Below, one piece after another: positions 13,453-60,686 of a DNA stretch of 64,000 bases (its first letter is position 1; each line of letters begins with the position of its first letter). The notes under the pieces are model-generated. The model worked only from the letters and a program-made list of their open reading frames with translations, did no database searches and had not been told where the DNA came from. The translations under genes and the position numbers were made by a program. This DNA comes from Hyphomicrobiales bacterium (GTDB lineage: Bacteria; Pseudomonadota; Alphaproteobacteria; Rhizobiales; Beijerinckiaceae). The DNA lies in assembly GCA_930633495.1 (NCBI GenBank), contig CAKNFJ010000001.1, positions 2,875,001 through 2,939,000 on the forward strand, read 5' to 3'.

Positions 13453-13466
13453 GGCGAGTCCCCCCC

Positions 13467-13489
13467 CTCCGGCAGGGTGACTGCCGGAG
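13467..13489 (+). terminator. Hairpin after the ankyrin gene
   Basis: A perfect 8-bp stem CTCCGGCA/TGCCGGAG with a 7-base loop lies 15 bp after the stop codon. There is no T tract, so termination strength is uncertain. Confidence 0.5.
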
Positions 13490-13603
13490 CGCCACGAAGG
13501 GAAGCCATCGCTCGCCCTGCTTGCCGTCCTTGCATGGGCCTGGAGTATCGGACTGAATCTCGTAGCCAGCCCGATACTCTTGGCTCCCATCGGGCAGGCG
13601 CAT

Positions 13604-14539: not shown

Positions 14540-15351
14540 GCCGCTTTCCTTCCGAAGAACTTGCCGAAGAAGCTGCGCTTCTCGCCGGGGACGGCGACCG
14601 GTAGGGTCTCGCCCCGGAGCCGGCGGGCCGCGTCGAAATAGGCGACGGCCGGGGCGCTGCGTTCATCGGTCAGCGTGACCGGCGAGCCGACATTGGAGGC
14701 GCGCAGCACGTCCATGCTTTCCGGCACGATGCCGAGCAGCGGGATCGACAGGATCTCGAGGACGTCGTCGACCTTGAGCATGTCGCCGCGCTCGGCGCGG
14801 GCGGGGTCGTAGCGGGTGAGCAGCAGGTGCTTCTCCATCCGCTCGCCATTCTCGGCCTTGAGCGTCTTGGAATCGAGCAAGCCGATGATGCGGTCGGAGT
14901 CGCGCACCGAGGACACTTCCGGATTGGTCACGACGATGGCCACGTCGGCATGGCGCATGGCGAGGGTGGCGCCGCGCTCGATGCCGGCCGGGCTGTCGCA
15001 GATGACCCAGTCGAAGGTCTGCTTGAGGGCTGCGATGACCTTCTCGACGCCTTCGGCGGTGAGATTGTCCTTGTCGCGGGTCTGCGAGGCCGGGAGCAGA
15101 TAGAGCGTCTCGAGCCGCTTGTCGCGGATCAGCGCCTGCGCCAGCTTGGCTTCGCCCTGGATGACGTTGACGAGGTCGTAGACCACCCGCCGCTCGGCGC
15201 CCATGACGAGATCGAGATTGCGCAGGCCGACGTCGAAATCGACGACCACGACCTTCTCGCCGTTGCGGGCGAGCGCGGCGCCCAGCGCCGCCGAGGAGGT
15301 CGTCTTGCCGACGCCGCCTTTGCCCGAAGTGACCACGATGACCTTGCCCAT
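14536..15351 (-). CDS. minD: Septum site-determining ATPase MinD
   Basis: The 271-residue ParA/MinD-family ATPase starts MGKVIVVTSGKGGVGKTTSS with the deviant Walker A at residues 10-17. DFDVGLRNLDLVMG, CDSPAGIERGA (Walker B-type) and the C-terminal amphipathic membrane-targeting tail (SFFGKFFGRKAA) are visible. The ATG at 15351 has GGAGG upstream. It binds the membrane in its ATP form, recruits MinC and is cycled by MinE. Confidence 0.97.
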   Translation of the reverse strand: MGKVIVVTSGKGGVGKTTSSAALGAALARNGEKVVVVDFDVGLRNLDLVMGAERRVVYDLVNVIQGEAKLAQALIRDKRLETLYLLPASQTRDKDNLTAEGVEKVIAALKQTFDWVICDSPAGIERGATLAMRHADVAIVVTNPEVSSVRDSDRIIGLLDSKTLKAENGERMEKHLLLTRYDPARAERGDMLKVDDVLEILSIPLLGIVPESMDVLRASNVGSPVTLTDERSAPAVAYFDAARRLRGETLPVAVPGEKRSFFGKFFGRKAA

Positions 15352-15385
15352 TGAGCCCTCCTGTTTGTGTGGACGCGCCGTCGGT

Positions 15386-16123
15386 TCAGGCGAGTGAGCC
15401 AACCTTGAATGTGTCGCCTTCGAGCCAGAGCTGGACGGCCTTGCCGCGCAGATCGGAGCCGAGGTCTTCCGCCGTCTTGTAGTAGCCGTCGATGGCGACA
15501 AGCTCCGCTTCGAGCTTCCTGCAGAAGATGCGAGCGGAGGCGTTGCCCATCGTGCCGGCCATGGCACGCCCTCTGAGCGTGCCGTAGACATGGATCGAAC
15601 CGCCGGCGACGACCTCGGCGCCCGAGGCGACCGAGCCGATGATCGTGACGTCGCCCTCGGTGAAGATCAGCGACTGCCCCGAACGGACGGGCTCCGTCAC
15701 CACGATCGACGGCGCGGTCCGGGGCGCCACGGGCAGCGGCGGCGGGGCCGTGCTCTCGGGCGCCCTGGCCTTGCCGCCCTCGTCCGGGGCGGGCTCCTCG
15801 AAATCCGCGGTCGGCCGTCCGTCTGCCATGGCCGGCGGCATGTCGGGGCCGAGCAGGGACGGGCGGGCGCCCTCGATGCCCATGATCCGGACGTTACGGG
15901 CTGCGAGCCTGTCGATGAGGTCGCGCAGTTGCGGCCGGTCGATGTCCAGTCCGTTGACGTCCAGAACCACCGGGCGGCGCATGAAGAAGCCGGTCGAGCG
16001 CGAGGCCAGATCGTCCAGCCGCACCAGCCAGTCCTCGAAGGGAAGCTCTGGTGTCAGGGCCATCGCAAGGAAGCTGCGCCCCTTGAGGCGAATAGGCCGG
16101 GGTTTGGTTAACACGTCGGTCAT
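15386..16123 (-). CDS. minC: Septum formation inhibitor MinC
   Basis: The 245-residue product has an N-terminal MinC_N domain (about residues 10-95, with RLKGRSFLAMALTPELPFED), a Pro/Ala-rich linker (about 95-140) and a C-terminal beta-helix domain (about 140-245) with the RSGQ motif and GSIHVYGTLRGRAMAG. It blocks FtsZ polymerisation at the poles when bound to MinD. It is first in the operon, and its promoter must lie in 16124-16479. Confidence 0.96.
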   Translation of the reverse strand: MTDVLTKPRPIRLKGRSFLAMALTPELPFEDWLVRLDDLASRSTGFFMRRPVVLDVNGLDIDRPQLRDLIDRLAARNVRIMGIEGARPSLLGPDMPPAMADGRPTADFEEPAPDEGGKARAPESTAPPPLPVAPRTAPSIVVTEPVRSGQSLIFTEGDVTIIGSVASGAEVVAGGSIHVYGTLRGRAMAGTMGNASARIFCRKLEAELVAIDGYYKTAEDLGSDLRGKAVQLWLEGDTFKVGSLA

Positions 16124-16479
16124 CTTGGTAAATTTTCAGTTGCCCCGATCTAGGCAGCGAATGGTTAACGAGATGTAAATGGAGGCGCCTAGGGAACCTG
16201 TTCACGCGGGTTTCACTGCGAGGAATTGAGAAATAGTGTAATATTATCAGTATTTTATATGGTTGATTGAAGATTAATGACTTGCTGTGGAGAGTCTTCC
16301 CGCCACGCTGGCGGCAGCCTGCCGACCGGCGTGCGGAACCGCCCGCTCATCCATCTGAAAGTACGGCCTTTCCGGCACTATCTGCGGTCCCGCCAGGCTT
16401 CCGCGCGGCCATTGCTGCAGCTCGTCGCGGATGATGTGCAGCCGAATCGGCCTTGTGGATCGACAGGCGTCCTGAAGCG
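16124..16479. other. Spacer upstream of minC, probable min promoter region
   Basis: This 356-bp stretch holds no gene I can support. A short AT-rich patch (about 16225-16280) and TTAAC-N6-TAAA at 16164-16177, a partial match to the CtrA half-site pattern, lie upstream of minC. The remainder up to the MocR gene shows no clear feature. Confidence 0.35.
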
Positions 16480-17811
16480 TCAGTCGAGGCGGCGGGCGGC
16501 GCGAGCCACAGCTGCGGCGACCCGTTCGTGGTCCTGCGCCAGTATCGCCGTCGCCAGCCTGACGTGCTCGGTCGGCCGCAGCGAGCATTTGCTGCCCGGC
16601 AGGACGGCGATGCCGTGGGCGGCCAGGGTTACCAGTGCGTATTGCTCGGATTCGACCGGTATCCAGATGCAGAGCCCGTCGGTTTCCGGCATCGCGATGC
16701 CTTGCTCCGCCAGGCAGCGGAGGAGGGCGCGCCGGCGTTCGGCATAGATCCGGCGGGCTTCGGCGACGCTGCGCGCGGTTGCCGCGTCATCGAGCAGCCA
16801 GGCGGTTGCCGCCTGCAGCAGCCGGCTCGTCCAGCCGGACGAGAAGCTGCGATAGGATTGGATCTGCCGGATGACCTTGTCCGGCGCCGAGAGCACGGCG
16901 ATTCGCAGGTCCGGTCCGAGCGACTTGGAGAAGGAGCGGATATGGACGACCCGTTCCGGCAGGGCCGCGCCCAGGCTGACCGGAGGATGGATCGAGACAT
17001 CGCCGACTCCGTCATCCTCGATCACCAGAGTGTCGTTGCCGGCCAGCACCGCCGCCAGCTCCTGCAGGCGTCGCGTGCTGACATGGCGCCCGGTGACGGA
17101 ATGCGTGCGGGGCTGGAACAGGAAGGCGGCCGGGCGCCGGGTCAGCGCCGCCGCGAGCTGGTCGGGCAGGGGGCCTTCGGCATCGCAGCCGACCGGGAGC
17201 AGCTCGGCGCCGAGATCCTCGATGATGTCGAGGAGACGCATCGCCGTGGGGTCCTCGATCGCGATGCAGGAGCCGGGCAGGACGGTCGCGTGCAGCACCG
17301 AATAGACGGCGTTGTAGCCGCCATTGGTGGCGAGGAAGGCGTCCGGCGCATAGGGCCACTGCGGCAGCACTGCCTGGCGCAGGGCCGGCAGGATCGGCGT
17401 GCGCTCATAGCTGTTGAGCTTTTCGGCTCTGGCCGCGCGAGCCAACGCGGCATCCAGCGGCGGCAGCAGCGCGGCATCGGGGATGGCGAAGGACAGGTCG
17501 AGCACGTCCGGCGCGAAATGCGCGACGCTGCCCATGCGCGCGGGGCGCGGGGTGGCGCTGTCGCCGCTGACCCAGGCACCGCCGCGCCCACGCCCCGAAA
17601 CGATCTTCTGGCGCTTCAGCTCGCTCCAGGCTTCCGAGATCGTGCCGGGGCTGACGCCGAGGCGGAAGGCGAGGTCGCGGACGGTCGGCATCCGCGTGCC
17701 GATCGGCAGCGCGCCGGCGCGTATTAGGCCGCTGACCTCCAACGCGATGCCGCGGGCGGTGCGTTGGGTCAGGCGGTCCGCCAGCCAGGTTGCGTCGGGT
17801 TCGGTGCTCAT
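16480..17811 (-). CDS. MocR-family regulator (GntR HTH plus aminotransferase domain)
   Basis: The 443-residue product begins with a GntR-type winged helix (residues about 15-80, with TRMPTVRDLAFRLGVSPGTI). A class I aminotransferase-like domain follows, with the PLP-binding lysine in RSFSKSLGPDLR (about residue 296). MocR proteins use PLP to sense amino compounds and usually control a divergent operon. Here the divergent operon encodes an amino-acid-type importer, so the ligand is probably the transported amine or amino acid. It has the normal length and all key motifs. Confidence 0.9.
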   Translation of the reverse strand: MSTEPDATWLADRLTQRTARGIALEVSGLIRAGALPIGTRMPTVRDLAFRLGVSPGTISEAWSELKRQKIVSGRGRGGAWVSGDSATPRPARMGSVAHFAPDVLDLSFAIPDAALLPPLDAALARAARAEKLNSYERTPILPALRQAVLPQWPYAPDAFLATNGGYNAVYSVLHATVLPGSCIAIEDPTAMRLLDIIEDLGAELLPVGCDAEGPLPDQLAAALTRRPAAFLFQPRTHSVTGRHVSTRRLQELAAVLAGNDTLVIEDDGVGDVSIHPPVSLGAALPERVVHIRSFSKSLGPDLRIAVLSAPDKVIRQIQSYRSFSSGWTSRLLQAATAWLLDDAATARSVAEARRIYAERRRALLRCLAEQGIAMPETDGLCIWIPVESEQYALVTLAAHGIAVLPGSKCSLRPTEHVRLATAILAQDHERVAAAVARAARRLD

Positions 17812-48315: not shown

Positions 48316-48981
48316 ATGACCGCGACCGGATCATCGGCCGAAGCCTCGATCGCACGGCGTGCCGCGCTCTTCCGCGAGATCGAGACCGCGACACTCGGCC
48401 ATATCCTGACCGAGGGCTTTATGGTCCCGACCATCCAGTGCGTCATAGAGGGGCCGCGCGTCTGCGGCCCGGCCTTCACCGTCAGCGTCCCGCCCGATGA
48501 CGGCGCGGTGCTGTCCTGCGCCCTGGTGCAGGCGAGGCCCGGCGACATCCTCGTCATCGACCGCCAGGGCGACGATCGCCATGCCTGCTGGGGCGCGGTG
48601 ATGACCGCCGCCGCGCAAGCCGCCGGCATCGTCGGCGTCGTCATCGACGGCTTCGTTACCGATGTCGCGGCGATCCGGGCTTCCGGCTTGCCGGTCTGGT
48701 GCCGCGGCCGCTCGCCCTTGACGACCAAGCTCCTCGGCAAGGGCGGCACGATCGGCGAGACCGTGAATTGCGGCGGCGCGACGGTGCGTCCCGGCGACCT
48801 CGTCCTCGCCGACGAGAACGGCGTCTGCGTCATCGATCCCACCGAGGCCGAGGCTCTCGCCCGGACCTGCGCCGCCATGCAGGCGGCCGAGCCCGGCGTC
48901 ATCGAGCGCGTCCTCAAGGGCGAGCGCATCGACGAGATCAACGGCGCGCGGAAGCTCTTCGAAAAATCGCAAGCCTCCTAG
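48316..48981 (+). CDS. RraA-like family protein
   Basis: The 221-residue product matches the RraA/HMG-aldolase fold: CVIEGPRVCGPAFTVSVPPD, ARPGDILVIDRQGD, WGAVMTAAAQAAGIVGVVIDG and NCGGATVRPGDLVLADENGV. In class II HMG/CHA aldolases the conserved Arg-Asp pair follows this last helix (DGxxRD); here it reads DGFVTD, with Thr replacing Arg. Pyruvate-aldolase activity is therefore doubtful and another role is likely. It precedes the second oligopeptide-type importer by 73 bp and may share its transcript. Confidence 0.85.
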   Translation: MTATGSSAEASIARRAALFREIETATLGHILTEGFMVPTIQCVIEGPRVCGPAFTVSVPPDDGAVLSCALVQARPGDILVIDRQGDDRHACWGAVMTAAAQAAGIVGVVIDGFVTDVAAIRASGLPVWCRGRSPLTTKLLGKGGTIGETVNCGGATVRPGDLVLADENGVCVIDPTEAEALARTCAAMQAAEPGVIERVLKGERIDEINGARKLFEKSQAS

Positions 48982-49054
48982 GCCGGTCATGGCACCGCCC
49001 GCAGAGGCGGGCCTCGATCGGATCACGATCCAGAAAACACAGGGGAACAGACCG

Positions 49055-50578
49055 ATGAAGATTGTGGGAACGACCGCGTTGGCTGGCGCGCTGCTGGCCG
49101 CCTCCTTCGCGCTGGCACCGGCTCCGGCCTTAGCCGGCAAGGCCGACGACACGCTCAACGCCGCCTTCGCGCTCGAGCCTGAAGCGCTCGACACCTACAA
49201 GATCGCCGGCCGCGAGGGCCTGATCCTCGCGCGGCACATCTATGACGGCCTGCTCTACAAAGATCTCGACACCGGCGAGATCAAGCCCGCGCTCGCCAAG
49301 GCCTGGCGCTTCGTCGATCCCACGACAATGGAATTCGACCTGCGCGAGGGCGTGACCTTCCATAACGGCGCCAAGTTCACCGCCGACGATGTCGTCTATA
49401 CTCTGACGACCGTGCTCGACCCCGCCTATGGCACGCGCTTCCGTATCGCCGTGGACTGGATCGACAAGGTCGAGAAGGTTTCGGACTTCCAGGTCCGGAT
49501 CAAGATGGCCAAGCCGTTCGCCGGCGCCGTCGAGATGCTGGCCGATGCGCTGCCGATCTATCCGGCCGCCTATTTCAAGGAGGTCGGCTCGGCCGGCATG
49601 GCCGCCAAGCCCGTCGGCACCGGCCCCTACAAGCTCACTGAGATGACGCCCGGCATTCGTTATGCCTTCGAGCGCTTCGACGGTCACTATGCCGGCAGCC
49701 CGAAGGGCAAGCCCGCCATCGGCAAGATCGTTGTGCGCACCATCCCCGAGCTCAACACCCAGTACGCCGAGCTGATGGCCGGCAAGCTCGACTGGACCTG
49801 GCGCATCCCGCCGGACCAGGCCGCGCGCCTCGCCAGCCGCGTGCAGATCGTCAACGGCCCGATCATGCGCATCTCCTATGTCGGCATGACCGTGACGGGG
49901 AAGGGCAAGGACTATCCGACCAAGAACCTGAAGGTCCGCCAGGCGATCAACCACGCCGTCAACCGCGAGGCCATCGTCAAGGCCTTCGCCGGCGGCGCCT
50001 CGCAGGTCCTCAACGCCGCCTGCAACCCCAAGCAGTTCGGCTGCGCGCAGGACGTGACGAAATATGCCTATGACCCGGCCAAGGCCAAGGCGCTGCTGAC
50101 CGAGGCCGGCTTCGCCAATGGCGTCGATATCGAGATGGTCTTCGCCGCCATGCCGCGCCCGGTCGCCGAGGCGATCGCCTCCGATCTCGGCAAGGCCGGC
50201 ATCCGCGTCACGCTGAACGAACAGCAATATGCCGCCGGCGTGCAGAAATGGCGCGCGGGCGAACTGCCCACCTTCTTCACCAACTGGGGCAGCTACGGCA
50301 CCGGCGACGTCGCCTTCATCATCTCCAACTTCTTCGGCGGCGGCGCCGACGACCTCGTCCAGGACAAGGAAGTCATCGAGCTGGTCAACGCGGCCGACAC
50401 TTCGCAGGATCGCGCACTGCGCGAGGCGAACTACGCCAAGGCGCTGAAGAAGATCGCCGATCAGGCCTATTGGCTGCCGATGTACGACTTCAACATCAAT
50501 TACGGCCTGTCGCAGCAGCTCACCTTCAAGCCCCATCCGGACGAGTTCGCCCGCTGGTGGCTGTCGAGCTGGAAGTAA
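49055..50578 (+). CDS. Oligopeptide/dipeptide-type ABC transporter substrate-binding protein (second system)
   Basis: The product has 507 residues from the ATG at 49055 (AGGGGAACAG upstream). A Sec signal peptide ends near PALAG. SBP family 5 blocks are present: LNAAFALEPEALDTYKIAGR, LREGVTFHNGAKFTADDVVY, GTGPYKLTEM and KNLKVRQAINHAVNREAIV. It binds a peptide-like or carbamoylated ligand for the permeases downstream. A type 3 palindromic repeat separates it from them. Confidence 0.93.
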   Translation: MKIVGTTALAGALLAASFALAPAPALAGKADDTLNAAFALEPEALDTYKIAGREGLILARHIYDGLLYKDLDTGEIKPALAKAWRFVDPTTMEFDLREGVTFHNGAKFTADDVVYTLTTVLDPAYGTRFRIAVDWIDKVEKVSDFQVRIKMAKPFAGAVEMLADALPIYPAAYFKEVGSAGMAAKPVGTGPYKLTEMTPGIRYAFERFDGHYAGSPKGKPAIGKIVVRTIPELNTQYAELMAGKLDWTWRIPPDQAARLASRVQIVNGPIMRISYVGMTVTGKGKDYPTKNLKVRQAINHAVNREAIVKAFAGGASQVLNAACNPKQFGCAQDVTKYAYDPAKAKALLTEAGFANGVDIEMVFAAMPRPVAEAIASDLGKAGIRVTLNEQQYAAGVQKWRAGELPTFFTNWGSYGTGDVAFIISNFFGGGADDLVQDKEVIELVNAADTSQDRALREANYAKALKKIADQAYWLPMYDFNINYGLSQQLTFKPHPDEFARWWLSSWK

Positions 50579-50644
50579 GGCTGTATTCCGCATCGCCCCG
50601 GCTCACACCGGAAGGGATTGGACCGTTGTCCGATCGGGCGGATA

Positions 50645-50734
50645 CGTCATTGCGAGCGTCAGCGCAGTAATCCAGGGGCGGCAGCGCTCTACGTCCCCCT
50701 GGATTGCTTCGTCGCTTCGCTCCTCGCAATGACG
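50645..50734. repeat. Large palindromic intergenic repeat, type 3 relative
   Basis: Outer arms CGTCATTGCGAG (50645-50656) and CTCGCAATGACG (50723-50734) are perfect complements, with inner CCAGGGG/CCCCCTGG pairing. This CATTGCGAG...CTGGATTGCTTCG type is widespread between genes in alphaproteobacteria. It lies between the binding-protein and permease genes of one operon. Confidence 0.8.
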
Positions 50735-50817
50735 GGCCCGTTTCTCCCTGCGATCCCGCCTGAACGGCCAACGCTCTTGTTCCACAGGCAAACCGCCCCG
50801 CTATCCACGGAGCCGTC

Positions 50818-51735
50818 ATGCTGCCCTTTCTTGCGCGCCGCCTGATCGTCGCCGCCCTCGTGGCGCTCGCCGTTTCCGCCGTCGCCTTCGGACTGATGTT
50901 CGTCTCCGGCGATCCCGCCGTCGTCCTCGCCGGGCAGGCTGGCCGGGCGCAGGATGTCGAACTGATCCGGCAGGCCTATGGCCTCGACCGGCCGATCCCG
51001 CTCCAGTTCCTGAGCTGGATCGGCAATGCCGTCGCCGGCAATTTCGGCACGAGCCTCTATTTCAACCTGCCGGTGGCGCCGATCATCGCCGAGCGGCTTT
51101 CGGTGACGCTCGTGCTCGGTTCGGCCGCCTTCCTGCTCGCGCTGGTGGTCGCCGTCCCGCTCGGCATCCTCGCCTCGCTCAAGCCCGGCGGCACGATCGA
51201 CCGCATCGCCCTGATGCTCGCCGTGCTCGGCCAGGCAATCCCGAGCTTCTGGCTCGGCCTGATCCTGATCGTGATCTTCGGCGTCTGGTACGGGCTCGTG
51301 CCGATCTCGGGCACGGAGAGCTGGCAGGGCTACATCCTGCCCGTCGTGGTGCTGAGCTACTACGCCATGCCGGCCCTGATGCGCCTGACCCGTGCCGGCA
51401 TGATCGACGTGCTCACCGCCGACTATATCCGCACCGCCCGCGCCAAGGGCGCCTCGCAAGGGCGCGTCCTGCTCGTCCATGCCTTGCGCAATGCCGTGCT
51501 GCCGCTGGTCTCGCTCGCCGCCGTGCAGTTCGGCCTGATGCTTTCCGGTTCGATCGTCATCGAGAGCGTCTTCGCCATCAACGGGCTCGGGCGTCTCGCC
51601 TGGGAATCGCTGCTGCGCAGCGACCTGCCGGTGGTGCAGGCGATCATCCTGATCCTCTCGCTGATCTACGTCACGCTGACGACCGTGGCTGACCTGATCA
51701 ATGCCTGGCTCGATCCCCGCCTAAGGAGCGCCTGA
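50818..51735 (+). CDS. Oligopeptide-type ABC transporter permease (DppB-like, second system)
   Basis: The 305-residue permease has the SGDPAVVLAGQAG motif after TM1, five further helices and the EAA loop RTARAKGASQGRVLLVHALR. Its stop overlaps the next ATG (TGATG at 51733-51737). It is a channel subunit for the second peptide-type importer. Confidence 0.93.
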   Translation: MLPFLARRLIVAALVALAVSAVAFGLMFVSGDPAVVLAGQAGRAQDVELIRQAYGLDRPIPLQFLSWIGNAVAGNFGTSLYFNLPVAPIIAERLSVTLVLGSAAFLLALVVAVPLGILASLKPGGTIDRIALMLAVLGQAIPSFWLGLILIVIFGVWYGLVPISGTESWQGYILPVVVLSYYAMPALMRLTRAGMIDVLTADYIRTARAKGASQGRVLLVHALRNAVLPLVSLAAVQFGLMLSGSIVIESVFAINGLGRLAWESLLRSDLPVVQAIILILSLIYVTLTTVADLINAWLDPRLRSA

Positions 51736-52607
51736 TGTCGATCGCCGACAGCCCTGCCATCCGCCGGCGCAAGCTCTTCAAGGGCCTGAGCGCCAGCAGC
51801 GCCATCCGCATCGGCGGTGGCCTGCTCGCCATCATCGTCTTAGTCGCGATCTTCGCGCCCTGGCTGTCGAGCCATGACCCGATCGCGCAGGATCTCGGGA
51901 AGCGCATGGTGCCGCCCTTCTGGTATCCGGGCGCGGATCCGGCCCACCTCCTCGGCACCGACCATCTCGGCCGCGACTACCTTGCCCGGTTGCTCCACGG
52001 CGCCCGTGTCTCGCTGCTTATCGGGCTCGGCGTCACGCTTTGCGCCGGGTTGATCGGCACGATGCTCGGCCTCACAGCCGGCTATTTCGGCGGCCGCGTC
52101 GACATGTTCGTCAGTTTCATCGTGACGACGCGGCTCTCGCTGCCGATCGTCTTGGTCGCGCTCGCGGCGGTGGCGCTGGGCGGCGCCTCGCTGAAGACGC
52201 TCGCGATCGTGCTCAGCCTCCTGCTCTGGGACCGTTTCGCCGTGGTCGTGCGCGCCGCGGCGCAGAGCCTGCGCAACCGCGAATTCGTGCAGGCGACCCA
52301 GTCCTTCGGCGCCTCGCATCTCTACATCATGCTGCACGGCATCCTGCCGAACCTGCGCAACACGCTGATCGTGGTCGCGACGCTGGAGATCGCCAACGTC
52401 ATCCTGCTCGAGGCGGCCCTGTCCTTCCTTGGCCTCGGCGCCCAGCCACCGACGCCCTCCTGGGGCCTGATGATCGCGGAAGGACGCGAGCACATCCTCT
52501 TCGATCCCTGGCTGATCGCGTTGCCCGGCGCCGGGCTCTGCCTGCTGATCCTGGCGGTGAACCTGCTCGGCGACGGCGTGCGCGACGCGCTCGACGAACG
52601 GCGCTGA
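51735..52607 (+). CDS. Oligopeptide-type ABC transporter permease (DppC-like, second system)
   Basis: The 290-residue permease has the DppC block LLGTDHLGRDYLARLLHGAR, multiple helices, and the EAA-like loop QATQSFGASHLYIMLHGILP. It is translationally coupled to the DppB-like gene. As at the first locus, no DppD/DppF ATPase genes follow: the plus-strand unit ends at the hairpin 52626-52642. Confidence 0.93.
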   Translation: MSIADSPAIRRRKLFKGLSASSAIRIGGGLLAIIVLVAIFAPWLSSHDPIAQDLGKRMVPPFWYPGADPAHLLGTDHLGRDYLARLLHGARVSLLIGLGVTLCAGLIGTMLGLTAGYFGGRVDMFVSFIVTTRLSLPIVLVALAAVALGGASLKTLAIVLSLLLWDRFAVVVRAAAQSLRNREFVQATQSFGASHLYIMLHGILPNLRNTLIVVATLEIANVILLEAALSFLGLGAQPPTPSWGLMIAEGREHILFDPWLIALPGAGLCLLILAVNLLGDGVRDALDERR

Positions 52608-53042: not shown

Positions 53043-55202
53043 CTATCCGTCGCTTGCAAGCAAAGCACCCCCAAGCTTGGCTTGACTGATCGGGTCCTGC
53101 GGCGCGGGGTGCAATCGCCCTTCGAGAAGCCGCATGATCTCCTCTCCCGCATTGCAAGGATCCGGCCCCTGAGCGGGTCCTGTTCCTGTCAGATATGCGA
53201 TCGCGGCCGCGCGGGCGACCTGTGGCGCGGCCATGCTCGTCCCCGACATTCGGACCACAGCGCCGCTCCGGGTTCCTCCGGCAAGCACGCCTTCGAGTGC
53301 CGAAGACGCGTCGGCGGGAGCGGACACATGCACCCGCCCGGCACCTGAGGGGAGCGTCGGGTATTTGCCGGCCGCGCTATACAAGGCGGGGGTCCGGCTG
53401 TCCGCCACGAAACCTCCGACCACCGCTACCGCATCGTGGGTCGCGAGACCGTTGAGAGTTCCGAACCGCCGAACGAATACGCCCGCGGGATTATCTCCAA
53501 GCGGCCGATGCCCCGATGCCTCGAACGCTTCATCGCCCGGATCATCGAAATAGCTTTGCCGCGCACCAAGAGCATAGCCGAACGGATTGATGTCGCGCTG
53601 GATGCGGCAGGTGATCGGGCCGTGTCGTGCGACGCCGTGCAGATGCCCGAGCCTCACCGTCCAGGTACCAGACGACGTGGACGGCAAGGTCGGATTGTCC
53701 GGCGTCGTCGGCGCCAACGCCATGACGAAACGCCACAAGGCCCTGTCATCGCCGGTCCGGTAACGCTCGACGCTCGCTTGACCGATCGGATGCTGGCAGA
53801 GCGATCCGGGCGGCATGAGGTCTATATGTCGGATGCTCGATCCCGCGCGGTCGATCGAGCCGTCGTAGATCGCATGACCCTTGGGGTCGGTGATGGTGAT
53901 GGAAACGCCATCGGGAATCGCTCCCTGCGGCAGCCAGATCTCCAGATAGTTCGATGTCCGATCGTTAGGCTGCAAGCGCCAGGGGATATCGAAACCGCGG
54001 TCGTGGCCCGAGAGCAGATCGGGTGTGATCTCGCCATGGAGGCTGCTCAGGAAGTCATTGCCCGCGGGCATGATCAGGTGGGTCACGCCACCCCGCGCAA
54101 TGCGCCGGCGGATAAGCGACCGCAAAGCCCGCTCCAGCCGCTCGCCGCCTTGGTGCGGCCCGCCATTGAAACCGTAGCTGAAGTTGATGATGAGGGGCAG
54201 CATGGCCCCTTTCCCGAGATAGCGCTCGGCAACCCGGTCCGCCCGATCGAAAATATAGTGGAAGGCGCTCAGGATGAAGGCGTCCTTACCGAAACTGGCC
54301 GTTTCGATGGTTGCCGGGGCAGGCAATTGCACGGCGATCACCCGCAGCGCGTCGAAATTGCCCGCCGGCGGAACGGGACGGGCTGGGTTGTGCTTGCCGC
54401 CATAACGGTGACCTGCGGCGGCATCCAGCACATGGGCGCCGTGCGTCGCCAATCGGTCGATCGTGGCGCCGGCGTAGACGCCGCGATCGGGGGAGGCGCG
54501 TCGGTAGAGCGTTTCCTCATCGTGCCCATGGGTCTGGACAAGCTCGTCGATTGCATCGCTCAGATATTCACGCCCGAACAGGACTGTCGGCTCCGCAACG
54601 CCATCTGCCGCCGCCCCTTGCAGCCAGCAGAACTCCATCCGGGTCGCACCGGTGGCACCCCGCACATTCTCATGAGCAAAGGCTATGCCGTCGTCGATCA
54701 CGGCCATCATCGCCGCCGGCGGAACAGGTGCGAAGGGGCAAGCCGCATAGCGTTCAGCGATGTTGTCCGGATGGAAGCCGGGGTTGAGAGCCGATCGCGG
54801 AATCCGGGAGTTGAAGCGGATGCCCGTTTCCTGCTTTCCCCGCTGCTCCGTTTCTCCAGACCGCAATTGCGCGCAAGCCTCCGCGAGATCGCGCAGCCGA
54901 TCCTCTGCCTTGTCGGTCCTTGGCTCGGCAACACGGAGCACGACCGGACAGAACACTCGCTCCGGTCCGTCGAAGGCAGCGGGCCAAAGCGTGGGCAAGA
55001 GCACTGCCGGCTTCTTCCCCGGAGAACCGCTGTCTTTCAGCCCAGTGGCGATCGCATATGGGTCCGTTCCGGCAGGCCACTCCGCAGTCGCCGCGATGAA
55101 CGGACTATCCGTAACGGTGGCTCCCGTGAACGCATAGGCCGCGCCGGTTCCGTGCGCCCAACGCTCATAGGGACCGATCAATTCTGCTAGGTCAGCGGAC
55201 AT
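53043..55202 (-). CDS. S8 (subtilisin-like) serine peptidase without signal peptide
   Basis: The 719-residue product has the complete catalytic set: Asp170 in MAVIDDGIAFAHEN, His254 in ATHGAHVLDAAAG, oxyanion-type Asn in NFSYG/MPAGND, and Ser about 656 in SGTSMAAPQVARA. A large insert of about 250 residues between His and Ser contains a beta-rich region (NYLEIWLPQGAIPDGVSITI, WTVRLGHLHGVARHGPITC). No export signal or transmembrane helix is seen, so it may act in the cytoplasm. About 140 residues precede the domain. It is last in an operon with PAP2-like and SARP-like genes. The target is unknown. Confidence 0.85.
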   Translation of the reverse strand: MSADLAELIGPYERWAHGTGAAYAFTGATVTDSPFIAATAEWPAGTDPYAIATGLKDSGSPGKKPAVLLPTLWPAAFDGPERVFCPVVLRVAEPRTDKAEDRLRDLAEACAQLRSGETEQRGKQETGIRFNSRIPRSALNPGFHPDNIAERYAACPFAPVPPAAMMAVIDDGIAFAHENVRGATGATRMEFCWLQGAAADGVAEPTVLFGREYLSDAIDELVQTHGHDEETLYRRASPDRGVYAGATIDRLATHGAHVLDAAAGHRYGGKHNPARPVPPAGNFDALRVIAVQLPAPATIETASFGKDAFILSAFHYIFDRADRVAERYLGKGAMLPLIINFSYGFNGGPHQGGERLERALRSLIRRRIARGGVTHLIMPAGNDFLSSLHGEITPDLLSGHDRGFDIPWRLQPNDRTSNYLEIWLPQGAIPDGVSITITDPKGHAIYDGSIDRAGSSIRHIDLMPPGSLCQHPIGQASVERYRTGDDRALWRFVMALAPTTPDNPTLPSTSSGTWTVRLGHLHGVARHGPITCRIQRDINPFGYALGARQSYFDDPGDEAFEASGHRPLGDNPAGVFVRRFGTLNGLATHDAVAVVGGFVADSRTPALYSAAGKYPTLPSGAGRVHVSAPADASSALEGVLAGGTRSGAVVRMSGTSMAAPQVARAAAIAYLTGTGPAQGPDPCNAGEEIMRLLEGRLHPAPQDPISQAKLGGALLASDG

Positions 55203-55237
55203 TGGAAAACCCCGTGCGGGTCAGCATCGCGCGCGCT

Positions 55238-56374
55238 TCAGGAGAGCCGAAACTCGTCGAGGCTCTTCTGCCACAGCCAGTCGAAGAGACTGCTTCTGCG
55301 CACGGGGATTCCATGCCCGTTAGTATCCCGCGAGAGACCCGTGCTGTTGGGATCCGCCTGTTCCGCCGGGATGCCAGGCCACAGGTCCGGCCGGAAAGCA
55401 CTCACGGTAAAGTCGATATTCCGGGCGACATAGGTTCGTGGCGTCACTTTGGCCGCTTGTGCGCCGCAGAGGGCCAGGACAACCTGGCCCACGGCCTCGC
55501 CCAGAGCGGCTCCCGCCCAGCTATCGATCGGAAAATGCACGCCGGCCACGGTGCGGTTCACGGCGACCCGTTCGGCCTGCTTGAACACTAGCCTCACCAG
55601 CTTTTCGGTGGACGGATAGTGCTGCATCGGCTTCACCGCCTTGAGCAGCCCTTCGATGACGGTTGCGACTGCAAAGGCTTCGGCGGCATGCGCGCTCGGG
55701 AAAGTCGCATGGCCGGGCGTCGAGATCATCGGCATCACCGTCGTTCCGAGCCGATCCGGTCGCCGGCACGCAAGATGGTGCTTGGCGATCATCGCAACGT
55801 GGGAGGTGAGGACCTGCGTGGCTGCGACCAACTCGAAAGTGAATCGATTGCGCGCGGCGTTGAGGCCGAGGATCATCGCGAAATAATCGATCGGATAGCC
55901 GAGCTGGGTCAGGATTTCAGCTGACCGTTCGCCGCGCAGATCCATATAGTCTCGCATCAGCGCGACCTGCTCGAGGAAGAGCGCCATCGGCGGCCTGTGC
56001 AGCGTGAGGAAGGTCGGCCTCCGCCATGAGAAAGAAACAGCCTCCGATCCGCTGCCTGTGTCCGCCTTCCAATCGAGATGACGCAGGAACTCGCTGAGAT
56101 AGAGCGATGAGCGCACCCATCCCTCGAAACCCATGAGATTGGCCGGGTTCGACATCTTCAAGGAGGCTGGCGCCTCGACCTCGCCAGTGCCTGCCGCGTG
56201 CATAATGGCCTGGCTGCTGATCAGGAGGCCCTGAGCTTCCAGAGGATCGACCGGGGTCCCGCCGATGAATGCGCCTAGTCCGGTGAGGTTTGTTCCTCCC
56301 GTCCCGCCGGTACCTCCTGTCCCACCAGTCCCGCCTGTGCCACCTGTTCCGCCTGTGCCCCCAAGTACCGACAT
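55238..56374 (-). CDS. PAP2/vanadium haloperoxidase-fold protein with N-terminal Gly-Gly-Thr repeats
   Basis: The 378-residue product opens with MSVL and eight tandem Gly-Gly-Thr units (residues 5-28). The PAP2 phosphate/vanadate site is recognisable: K-x6-RP in KHHLACRRPDR (about residues 198-208), PSAHA (about 227) and R-x5-H-x3-D in RTVAGVHFPIDSWAG (about 272). The fold suits acid phosphatases and vanadium-dependent haloperoxidases. The lack of clear membrane helices and the long N-terminal domain favour the soluble haloperoxidase-like branch. The gene lies 12 bp after the SARP-like regulator and 35 bp before the peptidase. Confidence 0.75.
   Translation of the reverse strand: MSVLGGTGGTGGTGGTGGTGGTGGTGGTNLTGLGAFIGGTPVDPLEAQGLLISSQAIMHAAGTGEVEAPASLKMSNPANLMGFEGWVRSSLYLSEFLRHLDWKADTGSGSEAVSFSWRRPTFLTLHRPPMALFLEQVALMRDYMDLRGERSAEILTQLGYPIDYFAMILGLNAARNRFTFELVAATQVLTSHVAMIAKHHLACRRPDRLGTTVMPMISTPGHATFPSAHAAEAFAVATVIEGLLKAVKPMQHYPSTEKLVRLVFKQAERVAVNRTVAGVHFPIDSWAGAALGEAVGQVVLALCGAQAAKVTPRTYVARNIDFTVSAFRPDLWPGIPAEQADPNSTGLSRDTNGHGIPVRRSSLFDWLWQKSLDEFRLS
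56291..56362 (-). repeat. Nine-bp tandem coding repeat (eight Gly-Gly-Thr units)
   Basis: Eight consecutive 9-bp units encode Gly-Gly-Thr with third-base variation between units, so the protein repeat is kept while the DNA has drifted. Copy-number change by slippage would alter the N-terminal length in frame. Confidence 0.85.
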
Positions 56375-56386
56375 ATCCCTGCCTCC

Positions 56387-58042
56387 TCACGGAATCCCTG
56401 CGGCGCGAAGCGCCGCTGCGGCGCTTCGACCGAATTCGTATTCTGCCGCCGGATGACTGCGCTGGTATCCCGCGACCGTGAAATCCGGCTGCCGGCGCAG
56501 AAGCTCCTGGCCGGCAAGAGCCGCATCCTGCCCCCGCCCCAGATGATGCAGAGCGACGATCTTCGTGCGCAGCGTCGACAAATGCCGATCGTTTTGACTG
56601 AGGGAGCGATCCGCCAAGGCGAGCGCACGCTGATGATCGCCCATCGCCAGATGCGCGGTCGCATTCAACGAGTCGTAGAAATAGCCGAAGGGATCGAGGG
56701 GCGAGAGCCTGCGGGCACGCTCCGTCGCCTTGACCGCCGAGGTCCCCTCATCACGGAAAGCATGCAGGGCGCCCTTGAGAAGCCAGGACAAGCCGGCGTT
56801 CGGGTTCCGCTCCAGCGCGGCCGAGTAGCGGACATCGGCAATATCGAGGCGACGCAAAAGATTATTCTGGGCAAAGCCGTCGATCGTCAGGCTGAAAGCG
56901 TTGTCGGGCTCGATGTCCAGCGCGCGCGCCGTGCAGTCGAGTGCGTGCCGCGTCTCCTGCGCGACATCTGAACTCCAGCCGTTGAAGACGCTGAGAACAT
57001 ACCATTTTCCGAGCCAGGCATGGAGTTCGGGCGTATAGGGCGCTCGGCGCGCGGCCTCTTCGAGGAGTTCGCGGGCGCGAGCAAAATCCCGCAAGACCGC
57101 ACGGTGCATCAGTGCGATCCCGGCGATCAGGAGGTTGTGATCGTCGATGGCGGCCGGCACCTTGCTCCGAACATGGACGAGCGCCTGCTCGGCGACCGCA
57201 GCGCCAACTGCCGCGACGATGGCCGCAATGCCCTCCGCCGATGCGTCAAGAAAGCGCTCGGCTCCATAGGCGAGCTGACGCGTCCACAGGATGCGTCCCG
57301 AGCGGGTATCGACGAAATCGCTATCCAGAACCAGATTGCCGCCCGATCGCCGCAACGTCCCGGTGACGCAGAAATCAGCCTGCAAGAGGTTTCGCACAGC
57401 CGTGATGTCGACCTGCGCCGATGCCATGGCCCGGCAGGACAGATGCGAGATCACCGCGAGCAGATGAGAGCGGCTGAGCGACCGGCAGATTTCCTCCGCG
57501 ACCCAGTCTCCCAGGACACCCGTCGGATGCTCGCCGTCCAGGGCCCGGAACGGGAGGACCGCCACGACCGGAAGCAAAGGAGAGAAGAGCTCCTGGCTGC
57601 CTCTGAACAATCCCGCCAATTGTCCGGGGTTCTGTCGAATGGCAGCCGCCCATGCAACGAAACCCGGCTCACGGATGTCGAGCCCCTCGAGGAATGGGCC
57701 GGACGAGACATGCCCGAGAAACCGCACCCGCGAGAGGTCCAGGGAGAGATCGGCATTGCTGCCTGCGATCAACTCCTCATAGGTGTTCCCCATGATGCGG
57801 CGGAGATCGGAAAGCGCCCGGCGAAGGCTCTGCCGCCCGGTGTCGTAGCAGGTGGCCCCCCAGAGCGTTTCCTGAAGGAACGCGCGCGTGCGGCGCCCGA
57901 AAGGCGCCGTTGCAAGCAACGCCAGCAAGGCTCGGTGCTTTGCGCCGGTCACGACGAAGCCGCCGGCTTCCGTCGATGATACCGCGCACGCCCCGAACAG
58001 GCTGATCTGGAGTAATTCCCCGGTCATGACGTAATGCCCCAT
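56387..58042 (-). CDS. SARP-type winged-helix regulator with TolB-like and TPR regions
   Basis: The product has 551 residues (start ATG 58042; ATG 58027 is an alternative). Residues about 10-105 form an OmpR/SARP-like DNA-binding domain (GAKHRALLALLATAPFGRRT, then RQSLRRALSDLRRIMG). Residues about 155-280 resemble the TolB/adenylate-cyclase-associated segment (VVAVLPFRALDGEH, GDWVAEEICRSLSRSHLLAV). The C-terminal half carries TPR-like helices (ALDIEPDNAFSLTIDGFAQN, ERNPNAGLSWLLKGALHAF). It is the first gene of the unit that encodes the PAP2-like protein and peptidase and is probably their activator. Confidence 0.82.
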   Translation of the reverse strand: MGHYVMTGELLQISLFGACAVSSTEAGGFVVTGAKHRALLALLATAPFGRRTRAFLQETLWGATCYDTGRQSLRRALSDLRRIMGNTYEELIAGSNADLSLDLSRVRFLGHVSSGPFLEGLDIREPGFVAWAAAIRQNPGQLAGLFRGSQELFSPLLPVVAVLPFRALDGEHPTGVLGDWVAEEICRSLSRSHLLAVISHLSCRAMASAQVDITAVRNLLQADFCVTGTLRRSGGNLVLDSDFVDTRSGRILWTRQLAYGAERFLDASAEGIAAIVAAVGAAVAEQALVHVRSKVPAAIDDHNLLIAGIALMHRAVLRDFARARELLEEAARRAPYTPELHAWLGKWYVLSVFNGWSSDVAQETRHALDCTARALDIEPDNAFSLTIDGFAQNNLLRRLDIADVRYSAALERNPNAGLSWLLKGALHAFRDEGTSAVKATERARRLSPLDPFGYFYDSLNATAHLAMGDHQRALALADRSLSQNDRHLSTLRTKIVALHHLGRGQDAALAGQELLRRQPDFTVAGYQRSHPAAEYEFGRSAAAALRAAGIP

Positions 58043-58141
58043 ACGCCTAAACCCAATTTATTGTAGTGAGCCGATCGAAGCCAATCCGTTTCACGGTTTT
58101 TTCACGCGCCGGCTGCCTCCGGAGCCGTTAGCCTGACCGTC

Positions 58142-58354
58142 ATGCCAAACCCGATCAAAACGACCGACTCTTGCGACGCTCGCATCACTCTGGCTCCGCC
58201 GCGCGATCTCGCCGATTTCTACCTGCGATGGCCGGAATTCCGGATCGTCGCCAGCGAAATCGCGGAACGCGAAACCCTCAGCAGGACCGAGCGAGAGGTC
58301 ATGACGTGGTTGCTGCGGCTCGCGGATCGGGTCGGGCCGCGAGACCTCGCCTAG
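58142..58354 (+). CDS. Small hypothetical protein upstream of the PAS-LuxR gene
   Basis: The 70-residue product starts at ATG 58142, is acidic/basic mixed, and contains DLADFYLRWPEFRIVASEIA and REVMTWLLRLADRVGPRDL. I do not recognise a family. It is divergent from the SARP-like gene and 50 bp before the LuxR-type gene on the same strand, so it probably belongs to the regulatory part of the cluster. Real-gene status rests on the amphipathic, coding-like composition. Confidence 0.55.
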   Translation: MPNPIKTTDSCDARITLAPPRDLADFYLRWPEFRIVASEIAERETLSRTEREVMTWLLRLADRVGPRDLA

Positions 58355-58404
58355 CCATGTGCCCTGAGCACGGGCCCTCGCACCTAGCAAAGGAGACCTA
58401 AAAA

Positions 58405-59151
58405 GTGGGCCTGACGCTGATCCGGTTCCCTCTCAGGGAAGAGAGAGACGATCCGCTGCAGCAGCGGATCGTCGAACTGCAACGCGAGGTCGGTCGGCTT
58501 ACAACCGAACGAGACGAGGCACTAGGTACACTGGATCGGCTTGCCCTGGGCATCATGATCCTTGATCGGAACATGCACGTCACCTTCGCCAATGCGAGCG
58601 CCAGGTGCCTTCTGGAGGAAAGCAACGGCCCGGCTGGCCAGAAATTGGGACGGTTCTTTGCGCGTGATCCGCGCGATCAGCAGCGCCTCAAGCAACTGGT
58701 CAAGAGCGTCTTGCAGGCCGAATGCATCTCGTCAGAACTTCACCAGACAAACATGATTTTGCATGGCGCCGATGGCACCCCGATACTGTCAGCTTGCGTA
58801 ATGCCTGCTTCATCCTCATGCGACGAGCGCTCGAATGACAAGGTCTTGCTCGCATTGGGCCGGCTTGAAACAGCACCGGATTTGCCTGACTGCGTGCGGC
58901 AAATGTTCAGCCTGACCGATGCGGAAACCAAATACGCCATCGCTCTCGTGAGGGGGCTTTCCTTGGCGGAAGAGGCTGAAGCCCAGGGCGTCCGGGTGTC
59001 GACGGCACGCACTCACCTGGCGCACATATTCCAGAAGACAAACACCCACCAACAGAGTCAGCTTGTCGCGCTGCTGAGCGCCACGACACCTGCGTTTCGA
59101 TCAGCCCGGCTTTCCGGCGGGCGAGCGTCAGGGACTTCAGGTCACGCGTAG
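58405..59151 (+). CDS. PAS domain plus LuxR-type HTH regulator
   Basis: The 248-residue product starts at GTG 58405 with AAGGAGA upstream. A short coiled coil (LQQRIVELQREVGRLTTERD, residues about 18-42) leads into a PAS-like domain (DRLALGIMILDRNMHVTFAN, about 45-160) and a C-terminal LuxR-type HTH (FSLTDAETKYAIALVRGLSL, EEAEAQGVRVSTARTHLAHI). No receiver domain is present, so it probably senses a ligand or redox state directly. It is transcribed away from the SARP/PAP2/peptidase operon and may cross-regulate it. Confidence 0.85.
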   Translation: MGLTLIRFPLREERDDPLQQRIVELQREVGRLTTERDEALGTLDRLALGIMILDRNMHVTFANASARCLLEESNGPAGQKLGRFFARDPRDQQRLKQLVKSVLQAECISSELHQTNMILHGADGTPILSACVMPASSSCDERSNDKVLLALGRLETAPDLPDCVRQMFSLTDAETKYAIALVRGLSLAEEAEAQGVRVSTARTHLAHIFQKTNTHQQSQLVALLSATTPAFRSARLSGGRASGTSGHA

Positions 59152-59364: not shown

Positions 59365-59760
59365 TTACCCTGCCGATGTAATGACCTTGCAGTGCCAGAC
59401 GAAATAGGTGGTTCTGCCCTTTCCGAAGTTCCCGTCGAGCAGTCTAATCGTGTCGTCGTGCCGGAACCAGGGGCGATATTCCTCTGCGTGCACCCAGCGA
59501 GAATTCGTCAGAATTAGAGAGTATTGCAGGAAGACTGCGGGCTCCAACAAAAAATACGCCCCGTTGTCCGTCTTCCAGAGTCCTCGGCCGTTTTGAGGCC
59601 CAAGTGCTCCCCCTTGCCACTTCCATTCAATCAAGGGCGGTCGCCAGTTGCCTTGTGCGTCCTTTTCATAGGTCGTTGCAAGCTCCAGCGTCCCGGCGTG
59701 CTTGCCGGTGTTTGGATGAAAGACGCTGAGCTTGTCGGTCTTGACCAGCACCACGCCCAT
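59365..59760 (-). CDS. Hypothetical protein, unrecognised
   Basis: The product has 131 residues from ATG 59760, with GGAGG 5 bp upstream. It is soluble, rich in Trp/Tyr/Phe, and beta-like in pattern (VLVKTDKLSVFHPNTGKHAG, LIEWKWQGGALGPQNGRGLW, YFLLEPAVFLQYSLILTNSR, TTYFVWHCKVITSAG). I recognise no family or catalytic motif. The higher aromatic content and AT-rich surroundings set it apart from its neighbours, in keeping with horizontal origin. Confidence 0.6.
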   Translation of the reverse strand: MGVVLVKTDKLSVFHPNTGKHAGTLELATTYEKDAQGNWRPPLIEWKWQGGALGPQNGRGLWKTDNGAYFLLEPAVFLQYSLILTNSRWVHAEEYRPWFRHDDTIRLLDGNFGKGRTTYFVWHCKVITSAG

Positions 59761-60288
59761 GGGCCCCTCCAAGAGTGTCCGTCGTCAGGAGTCTGTAGAC
59801 AGAAGGCCCGTCTATTTTGGAGCGTCTCCGGACGTCTGGGATGACGTTATGCGACCTGTGCTGTGCCTCCAGGTGTCATCGTGCTAGGGGTGGCCTATTT
59901 ATCAATGAACCAATCCATAAATCATGAATAAATTATGAGTCTTGTAGACATTAATTAAATAAACTATAATATTATCTTATTATAATTTCGCATATTAAAT
60001 TTTATATATTAGGAAATATCAATTGGTTTGCGAGTTTAAGCAGGTATTTTATTTCAAATCAGAGTCGTTCGACCATAGGACGAGTCCCGTTTCAATATCC
60101 ATCCATGTTTATTCGGCATTGCGACCCTGCTGTCTGCCAAAAGACATATTTCAGGGTGGGCCAATTCAGTGGGCACTTCGCTCGCCGGGCCGAAAAGGCG
60201 GCCTAGACCGATGAATGCGTGACGACGCTGTAGCGTGAGCCGATTGAAACACACTCAATCCGGAGAGTTTAGACCCTCGGCAAGGGGC
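59761..60288. other. AT-rich gene-free island
   Basis: These 530 bp hold no convincing gene. Counting bases, 59901-60060 has about 34 G/C in 160 (about 21%), against a clearly G+C-rich background. It includes runs such as TTAATTAAATAAACTATAAT. It sits between an orphan gene and a transposase remnant, as expected for acquired DNA. It may also hold a promoter. Confidence 0.7.
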
Positions 60289-60469
60289 TCATTTAAGCTG
60301 CTGGGTTGCAAGAGCGACGAGAGCGAGGACCTTGACGGCGAGCCTGTCGTATCGCGTCGCGATGCGCTTCCAGTTTTTTGAGCTTGCCGAACATGCGCCC
60401 GATGATATTTCGGCGCCGATAGGCTGTGCGGTCGCCCGTGTCACGCCTTCCCAGCCTTTCTGGGATGTC
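60289..60469 (-). mobile_element. IS5-family transposase 3' remnant, frameshifted
   Basis: Minus-strand frames give DRTAYRRRNIIGRMFGKLK and then, after a +1 shift in an A6 run (T6 at 60374-60379), NWKRIATRYDRLAVKVLALV ending ALATQQLK at 60289-60291. This is the C-terminal YRRRNxxxRMFxxLKxWRRIATRYDR block of IS5/IS427-type transposases. An in-frame stop precedes the block, so about 60 codons remain and it is not active. Confidence 0.75.
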
Positions 60470-60686
60470 TCACCTTGCTCTCGGCGTTGCTTCGACTGCG
60501 AGGGCAGCAATCCTGAGCCGACAATCCACCTCTCTCGGAGATGGGTTGTCGGTTCAGGGAAACGTCAGCCTGCCTTGAATTGGTTGGCTATGGCCTCGGT
60601 GCCTCGTGCCAGGACGCCGACGTCTTTGGCTATGGCGGTGAAGAGGGTTCCGATCTCGATGCGGCGTGGTTGCACAGCCCCGTCGT

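Follow-up and report, generated by a model that had tools for sequence, protein, structure and literature searches.

A conserved operon of regulator, PAP2 enzyme and protease in which a peptide repeat on the enzyme coevolves with the C-terminal TPR half of the regulator

INTRODUCTION

Regulators with TPR repeats that read the product of an adjoining gene are described in the RRNPP family (Rap, NprR, PlcR, PrgX), whose ligands are communication propeptides in Firmicutes (PMC10075063). In these systems the TPR regulator adjoins the gene of its ligand, and ligand and receptor diversify together. The same two features, with a putative ligand, would describe an operon in a 64,000-nucleotide stretch of DNA from a Hyphomicrobiales bacterium (contig CAKNFJ010000001.1, positions 2,875,001 to 2,939,000; this whole stretch is called the window below), where the gene of a regulator with a C-terminal TPR array is followed by that of a PAP2-superfamily enzyme with a short-peptide repeat at its N terminus and by that of a subtilase. 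Two further kinds of system resemble parts of the operon. In the trigger-enzyme pair MalY–MalT, an enzyme binds a regulator, and CadC/SARP-like regulators typically have operators made of direct repeats with 11-bp spacing. A search of the open-access literature for the system, for its parts and for RRNPP systems in Gram-negative bacteria returned no description of the system, in a body of texts from which subscription journals are mostly missing.

Here we report that the repeat unit of the enzyme coevolves with the C-terminal TPR half of the regulator. We infer from this coevolution, with a probability of roughly 65%, that the operon is a self-regulating signalling module in which the TPR groove of the regulator recognises the repeat tail of the PAP2 enzyme.

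RESULTS

Regulator, PAP2 enzyme and protease form a conserved unit

The window comes from a genome of 5.94 Mb, and the closest named relatives of the operon's proteins are from Bosea. A preliminary description of the window had noted three minus-strand genes separated by gaps of 12 and 35 bp, and had proposed that regulator, PAP2-fold enzyme and protease form a functional unit, an idea it was ready to give up if the gene order occurred nowhere else. The open reading frames (ORFs) and gaps are as described (Table 1), and Pfam recognises TPR repeats in the regulator, PAP2 (PF01569, 3.7e-10) in the enzyme and Peptidase_S8 (PF00082, 6.9e-7) in the protease. Scanning a genome collection (84,980 species by its own description) with a subtilase profile, we obtained 121 relatives, the best 80 of which were made into loci. 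Regulator, PAP2 and subtilase genes follow one another in this order and on one strand in 76 of the 80 (including L045 and L047, with broken ORFs); three of the exceptions (L022, L042, L068) are cut by contig ends, and in the fourth (L080) the regulator is divergent. The gene order thus recurs widely, and the co-occurrence bears out the proposed unit. Among the hosts named in the records are Bosea, Bradyrhizobium, Roseibium, Microvirga, Kiloniella, Marivita, Loktanella and Paraburkholderia.

A divergently encoded small protein of 70 residues accompanies the trio in 60 of 75 loci examined, the window among them. The 59 other loci with this protein comprise 57 with a winged-helix regulator, one untyped and one outside the typed set; where the protein is missing (15 loci), the regulator is of the cyclase type in 14 and has a winged helix in one (L074).

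Sister systems were found by searches with a PAP2 profile, and in them the partner protease swaps family. Besides the main S8 subtilase, it may be another S8 type (L114 and L119 by Pfam; also L182, L183 and L186 by hidden Markov model (HMM)) or an A4 glutamic peptidase (L116–L118 by Pfam; also L113, L115 and L121 by HMM). The output domain of 164 regulators is a winged helix in 99, a class III cyclase in 59 and untyped in 6, with PF00211 found by Pfam in 8 of 54 members. Judged from these sequences, the TPR part and the repeat-tailed PAP2 enzyme are the constant pair across systems, a core around which output domain and protease swap.

The PAP2 enzyme carries a homogeneous peptide repeat with mixed codons

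The preliminary description had remarked on an odd repeat tail. The repeat is there, as an N-terminal MSVL followed by (GGT)x8, but it is no oddity: we find it to be the central feature of the system. Among PAP2s next to such a regulator (de-duplicated by their last 120 residues), 127 of 132 have a perfect tandem repeat of a 2–5-residue unit. In 119 of the 127, no more than 50 residues separate it from the mechanical ORF start; in a few, it lies further inside the protein, e.g. the NK and NR repeats of L194, L201, L225 and L216. The five that do not conform are L018 (a compound repeat), L120 (EGGG x3), L187 (a C-terminal SLSLSLSL), L045 (a mis-called start) and L047 (a broken ORF). PAP2 homologues without a regulator neighbour have a repeat in one case of 25 (L042, at a contig end). 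Tandem repeats are absent from 135 regulators, 121 S8 subtilases, 6 A4 and 5 other S8 proteases, and occur in 3 of 5795 other mechanical ORFs (at least 100 residues) of the loci. One PAP2 from the genus of genome G633 (L324/L343) is without a repeat; inserted between regulator and PAP2 is a transposase-like ORF (L343 5711-6229), which resembles those of the IS200 kind.

The period is 3 in 116 repeats, 2 in 6, 4 in 3 and 5 in 2, and 49 different units were counted, including GGF, GGI, GGV, GGL, GGA, GGT, GGH, GGE, AGR, GNQ, NAE and NAD, as well as GMD, ARD, GGNWF, GGGH, NK, NR and MT. The arrays of 159 tailed loci have median lengths of 9.7 units and 29 residues. The tail is predicted to be disordered.

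At the DNA level, the arrays are mixed. The eight GGT units of the window are encoded by eight different 9-mers, and the (GGT)3 DNA pattern has no match in the genome outside this PAP2 gene. Over 152 arrays, the units agree in their codons at a median of 0.31, where the codon usage of the locus predicts a median of 0.35, and the observed value falls below expectation in 106 (Wilcoxon p = 3e-7). The repeat thus keeps its residues constant over DNA that is as mixed as codon usage allows, or slightly more so; since the unit is homogeneous within the protein and its codons are not, it is the peptide that is selected, not the DNA. We reject DNA slippage as the origin of the repeat on the ground of the mixed codons of most arrays, though the arrays of L020, L026 and L089, with few distinct 9-mers, look young.

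The repeat unit coevolves with the C-terminal TPR half of the regulator

We gathered 164 regulator–PAP2 loci (regulators de-duplicated by their last 200 residues; regulator score at least 250), and 148 of the 159 tailed ones (regulator score at least 370, PAP2 score at least 200) made up the coevolution set. Close pairs were defined by identity over the winged helix plus the middle alpha/beta domain, which we call TolB-like after the label in the preliminary description; the 44 disjoint pairs comprise 29 with the same unit and 15 with different units. Relative to the rest of the regulator, the identity of the C-terminal TPR half (TPR-C) has a median of +0.01 in same-unit pairs and −0.11 in different-unit pairs (one-sided Mann–Whitney p = 6e-5). 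In the same pairs, the effect on the N-terminal half of the TPR array is small (p = 0.036), and there is none on the PAP2 core (p = 0.30). In windows of 30 columns, the drop starts near regulator column 330 and is strongest at 480–540 (p = 7e-6 at 480–510). On the PAP2 side, the first 30 residues past the tail drop (−0.08, p = 0.05), so that the affected stretch is lopsided, with about 200 residues in the regulator and mainly 30 in the PAP2 enzyme. The subset with subtilase sequences gave a similar picture (TPR-C +0.01 versus −0.115, p = 3.5e-5). Mutual information over all columns was also tried and set aside as confounded by relatedness and sparse columns; three of its top five columns lie in TPR-C, after which the ranking is mixed.

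The DNA of one pair, L032/L033, has low third-position identity over the TPR C-half and the tail, which recovers in the PAP2 core. A similar but less clear tract is seen in L051/L060, and none in the four same-unit pairs shown. As the tract spans both TPR C-half and tail, tail and groove move together.

One TPR residue follows the chemistry of the unit

For single residues, we used the 93 of the 148 loci whose unit has a single F, I, V, L or T, the other residues being G, A or S. Regulator column 483, which is T493 in the window, holds Ala with I or V units and mostly Thr, Ser, Val or Ile with F, L or T units, a rule followed in 89 of the 93 loci (exceptions L024, L210, L266 and L295). Loci with divergent or separated regulator and PAP2 genes, such as L199, L204, L212, L230 and L232, carry other units. 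The column predicts the class of the unit at 96%; no other column of regulator or PAP2 exceeds 82%. The split is observed in winged-helix and cyclase types alike. In independent contrasts, with the tree taken from the other half of the regulator, an average of 11.3 out of 12 agree, 0.7 show no difference and 0.0 are opposite; over 200 pairings, the sign test gave a median p of 0.001 (range 0.0005–0.012), with one opposite contrast in a few pairings. A scan of 1,362 columns in the three proteins over all splits of one or two residues (20,430 tests) again placed column 483 best (52/55 and 36/38 right), and 13 of its 50 best tests fall in TPR-C, which holds 130 of the 1,362 columns.

Columns 452, 486 and 527 (T462, V496 and F537) show some size complementarity, e.g. 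small residues with F units. In the predicted structure, T493 and V496 lie in one TPR A-helix, T462 in the preceding A-helix and F537 in the C-terminal helix. Counted from the conserved glycine, T462, T493 and V496 occupy TPR positions 9, 6 and 9; in HOP, the peptide is contacted by positions 2, 5, 6, 9, 12 and 13 (PMC1261162). We regard T493 as a candidate specificity residue.

Regulator domains and an operator-like repeat

The structure of the regulator was predicted with a pLDDT of 88, and its TPR array is supported by both Pfam and AlphaFold2. The N-terminal winged helix has a weak Pfam match (0.032) and a compatible secondary structure. The earlier name SARP finds no support in the strict sense: a BTAD match is absent at E ≤ 0.1 in the window and from the matches listed at E ≤ 1e-3 for 54 members.

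Upstream of the regulator gene lies a direct repeat, GYGTGAA-N4-GYGTGAA, with 11-bp spacing. Allowing at most two mismatches, it is present in 51 of 60 winged-helix loci, in 0 of 15 cyclase loci and in 1.1% of 375 shuffled sequences. Across the genome, SYGTGAAWNNNSYGTGAA is matched perfectly only by the copy in the window (58090-58107), and with one mismatch at six other sites. The simplest reading is that the operon and the divergent small gene would be autoregulated. A one-mismatch copy also lies away from the operon, at 16201-16218 of the window on the minus strand; 0.18 matches per window are expected by chance.

Enzyme and protease have complete active sites

As the preliminary description had it, the PAP2 site is complete (K198, R205, H229, R274, H280 and D284). 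These K, R, H, R, H and D are identical in 148 of 148 aligned PAP2s, and the serine that precedes the His motif (S227) is kept in 137, with M instead in 7 and A in 4. The KX6RP ... PS(G/A)H ... RX5HX3D site lies in PF01569, found in 33 of 33, which places the enzyme in the PAP2 superfamily. The haloperoxidase activity suggested earlier, which would be halide oxidation with bound vanadate, finds no support here, the nearest solved folds being class A acid phosphatases.

The catalytic residues of the protease likewise proved complete: D171, H254, N382 and S656 do not vary across 32 aligned sequences, the window's included. Over 111 aligned sequences, counting non-gap positions, D is found in 91 of 92 (one E), H in 92 of 92, N in 92 of 92 and S in 88 of 88, as expected of the D-H-S triad and oxyanion Asn of S8. 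A signal peptide, whose absence had also been noted, is not evident on inspection by eye.

Distribution, second systems and surroundings

The regulator type is patchily distributed. At E ≤ 1e-100, the window's genus (Bosea) has it in 12 of 67 genomes, the Roseibium/Labrenzia genus (that of G666) in 18 of 45, the Bradyrhizobium genus (that of G633) in 35 of 252 and a Rhodobacteraceae-type family (that of G331) in 33 of 325; these counts are of regulator matches, not every one of which has a tailed enzyme beside it, and the genus and family names were taken from named loci whose regulator ends are identical. Of 95 regulator loci, 11 are without PAP2 in the 1.5-kb flank, among them L338 with a broken regulator ORF, and in their wider context neither PAP2 nor a repeat-bearing gene was found near the regulator.

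The genome of the window contains a second system, L113 (G000:C1, about 4777345-4781313; locus 7346-8599, 8379-9371 and 9422-11314, all minus), with an A4-type protease, a PAP2 with a TGN/GNT tail and a regulator that matches the profile and has a class III cyclase-like start (by eye). Its repeat unit differs from the GGT of the window. In a plain tally of ten genomes noted to have two or more repeat-bearing systems, the units differ within each.

No generally conserved downstream gene was found in the loci, the extras being lineage-specific. In L054, the operon is followed (12098-16538) by an animal-haem-peroxidase-family gene and an LCAT–trypsin fusion (according to Pfam, run on L054 alone), and related genes lie near the operon in L005, L009, L058, L060 and L061. 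L050 has another S8 protein with HYDIN-type immunoglobulin domains. Seven loci, L010 and others of Roseibium type, share a gene whose product has an EGDSWFQYP motif and by eye resembles SGNH hydrolases; it mostly lies second after the operon and on the same strand.

The PAS-LuxR gene, counted earlier as a member of the cluster, drops out as a conserved part: it gave 3 matches in 81 sequences, including the window itself and one weak match, and among the loci searched is clearly common only to the window and Bosea thiooxidans (L001). Against the PADLOC models of known anti-phage defence (2023 library), 0 of 6 proteins of the window gave a match at E ≤ 0.1, a result that a new defence system could escape. 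Adjoining the cluster, 59900-60600 is AT-rich, with GC content down to 0.55–0.59 and an apparent transposase remnant, and a 135-residue ORF at 59365-59772 (minus) has no match in Pfam, NCBIfam or PADLOC at E ≤ 0.1. On the other side, 48316-52607 holds an RraA-like gene and an oligopeptide-type solute-binding protein, then two permease-looking ORFs that end about 435 bp from the subtilase; a neighbourhood conserved with the operon was not seen there.

Table 1. Positions of the operon parts and nearby features in the window
Feature	Position	Strand	Remarks
Regulator gene	56387..58042	-	551 aa; winged helix at the N terminus, alpha/beta domain in the middle, TPR array at the C terminus
C-terminal TPR half of regulator (residues 410-551)	56387..56815	-	Coevolves with the repeat unit
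T493 codon of regulator	56564..56566	-	Separates I/V repeat units from F/L/T units
PAP2-superfamily enzyme gene (class A acid phosphatase / vanadium haloperoxidase fold)	55238..56374	-	Complete active site; 378 aa
Repeat tail (Gly-Gly-Thr)x8 (PAP2 residues 5-28)	56291..56362	-	Eight different 9-mers
Subtilase (S8) gene	53043..55202	-	Catalytic D/H/N/S complete; signal peptide not evident by eye
Divergent small protein, 70 aa	58142..58354	+	Conserved fourth part in winged-helix type
Operator-like direct repeat GCGTGAA-N4-CCGTGAA, 11-bp spacing	58090..58107	-	Between small gene and regulator gene
PAS-LuxR regulator	58405..59151	+	Local neighbour, not a conserved part

DISCUSSION

In the module that we propose, the C-terminal TPR groove of the regulator would bind the homogeneous short-peptide repeat at the N terminus of the PAP2 enzyme encoded by the next gene. 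The sequence of the repeat would be arbitrary between lineages, like a password, yet bound to match the groove, so that tail and groove would change together and be exchanged as a cassette, as their coevolution suggests. Occupancy of the groove would then control the output, either through the winged helix on the 11-bp-spaced repeat of its own promoter or, in the sister systems, through a class III nucleotide cyclase. The protease would most likely alter occupancy by cutting the tail or a partner of the tail, which we regard as the weakest step. The module may thereby report the intact tailed enzyme or its loss. A protease-activated system, as had been guessed in the preliminary description, is possible.

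Several results weigh against recognition of the tail by the groove. Tail and TPR-C are adjacent in the DNA, and linked recombination could therefore yield part of the coevolution. PAP2 columns 120–150 are also slightly down in different-unit pairs (−0.04, p = 0.015), and in the subtilase subset PAP2 core and subtilase fall slightly (p about 0.02 each; about −0.03 versus −0.13). Fitch parsimony counts 65 unit changes on the TPR-C tree versus 70–71, a small difference from too coarse a measure. As to T493, the split into I/V and F/L/T was first spotted in the data, the scan over all splits of one or two residues coming later, and T units gave the runners-up of that scan (0.91 and 0.89), with columns from PAP2 and subtilase. 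The filter on far relatives (TolB-part identity below 0.60) dropped on average about 3 of 92 loci and is therefore a weak control for relatedness. Changes between different units are not concentrated at the canonical TPR ligand positions (ratio 2.8 versus 2.4 at other A-helix positions), and the protease coevolves little with the unit, which argues against unit-specific cleavage.

Linked inheritance alone, in which recombination without physical recognition replaces the 3' end of the regulator gene together with the adjacent 5' end of the PAP2 gene, would fit both the spread of changes over the helices beyond the ligand positions and the third-position identity of L032/L033 (in L051/L060 less clearly so), which is low over TPR-C plus tail and rises again in the PAP2 core. 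We nevertheless consider it unlikely, as the tract is lopsided, with its long arm in the regulator, and as one TPR residue follows the chemistry of the unit in independent contrasts, which hitch-hiking on a shared tract does not predict. Another reading takes the tail as a multicopy precursor of a peptide signal, with units freed by the protease and sensed by the TPR receptor, perhaps between cells, in the manner of RRNPP. Homogeneous multicopy units of arbitrary, lineage-specific sequence, an adjacent protease, a TPR receptor of matching specificity and a cassette exchange that resembles pherotype exchange would all suit such a signal; yet the precursor has no evident signal peptide, its units go down to 2–3 residues, the S8 protease coevolves little with them, and the enzyme that bears the repeat is conserved and has a complete active site, which leaves this reading distinctly improbable. 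We give marginally more credence, though it too is improbable, to a proteobacterial peptide-code family in which the protease would clip lineage-specific units off the PAP2 tail and the TPR regulator, with winged helix or cyclase, would read the freed units as self-specific signals, the cassettes being pherotype-like.

If the tail served the enzyme as a homotypic assembly or condensation motif, homogeneity would be needed for stacking, and the common glycine-rich GGX units and predicted disorder agree with this. However, units such as GGE, AGR, GAR, NAE, NK and NR put like charges together, and the covariation with a TPR residue is left unexplained, so that we rate it the least probable of all. 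Scarcely better placed, and very improbable in our judgement, is the earlier guess of an oxidative, specialised-metabolism or antagonism operon with a vanadium haloperoxidase and an incidental tail. It can point to the PAP2 fold with its complete site, to the animal-haem-peroxidase-domain gene after the operon in L054 and to blastp relatives of that gene near the operon in five more loci; for antagonism or specialised metabolism as the role, this analysis yielded no positive evidence, and the nearest solved folds are those of phosphatases. On balance, we favour recognition of the repeat tail by the TPR groove.

Compared with described families, the enzyme has the fold and the complete K-R-H-R-H-D site of the PAP2 superfamily (PhoN/PhoC, vanadium haloperoxidases), to which it adds the N-terminal tandem-repeat tail and the linkage to a TPR regulator and a protease, with no signal peptide evident by eye. 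Among solved structures, the subtilase is matched best in sequence by the clostridial germination subtilases Csp (CspB), which have the S8 triad in common with it; the best matching stretch is only about 70 residues, and hosts and context are different. The regulator has the N-terminal winged helix and the 11-bp-spaced direct-repeat operator of CadC/SARP-like one-component regulators, and the periplasmic domain of CadC is among its fold matches. It differs from them in that BTAD was not found, the TPR array is tied to a repeat-tailed enzyme and no transmembrane segment is evident by eye. With MalY–MalT, the module would have in common an enzyme that reports to a regulator by binding, although we know of no repetitive arbitrary tail or coevolving code in trigger enzymes of that type.

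Nor do we know of a case in which selection keeps a protein segment repetitive and homogeneous, with its sequence free, and matched to a coevolving receptor groove. If our reading is right, the module would represent a new way of pairing an enzyme with a regulator and a natural peptide–TPR specificity code, with 49 observed units and one directly testable candidate residue. The system is widespread, and the database names of its parts do not reveal it. Set against RRNPP, whose defining ligand is a small exported propeptide, taken up again in mature form and sensed in the cytosol, the repeat here heads a 378-residue enzyme with an MSVLGGT start and no export signal evident by eye. The apparent ligand is thus a 2–5-residue unit repeated on the N terminus of an enzyme, in Proteobacteria, and it is accompanied by an operon protease and by a swappable winged helix-turn-helix or cyclase output.

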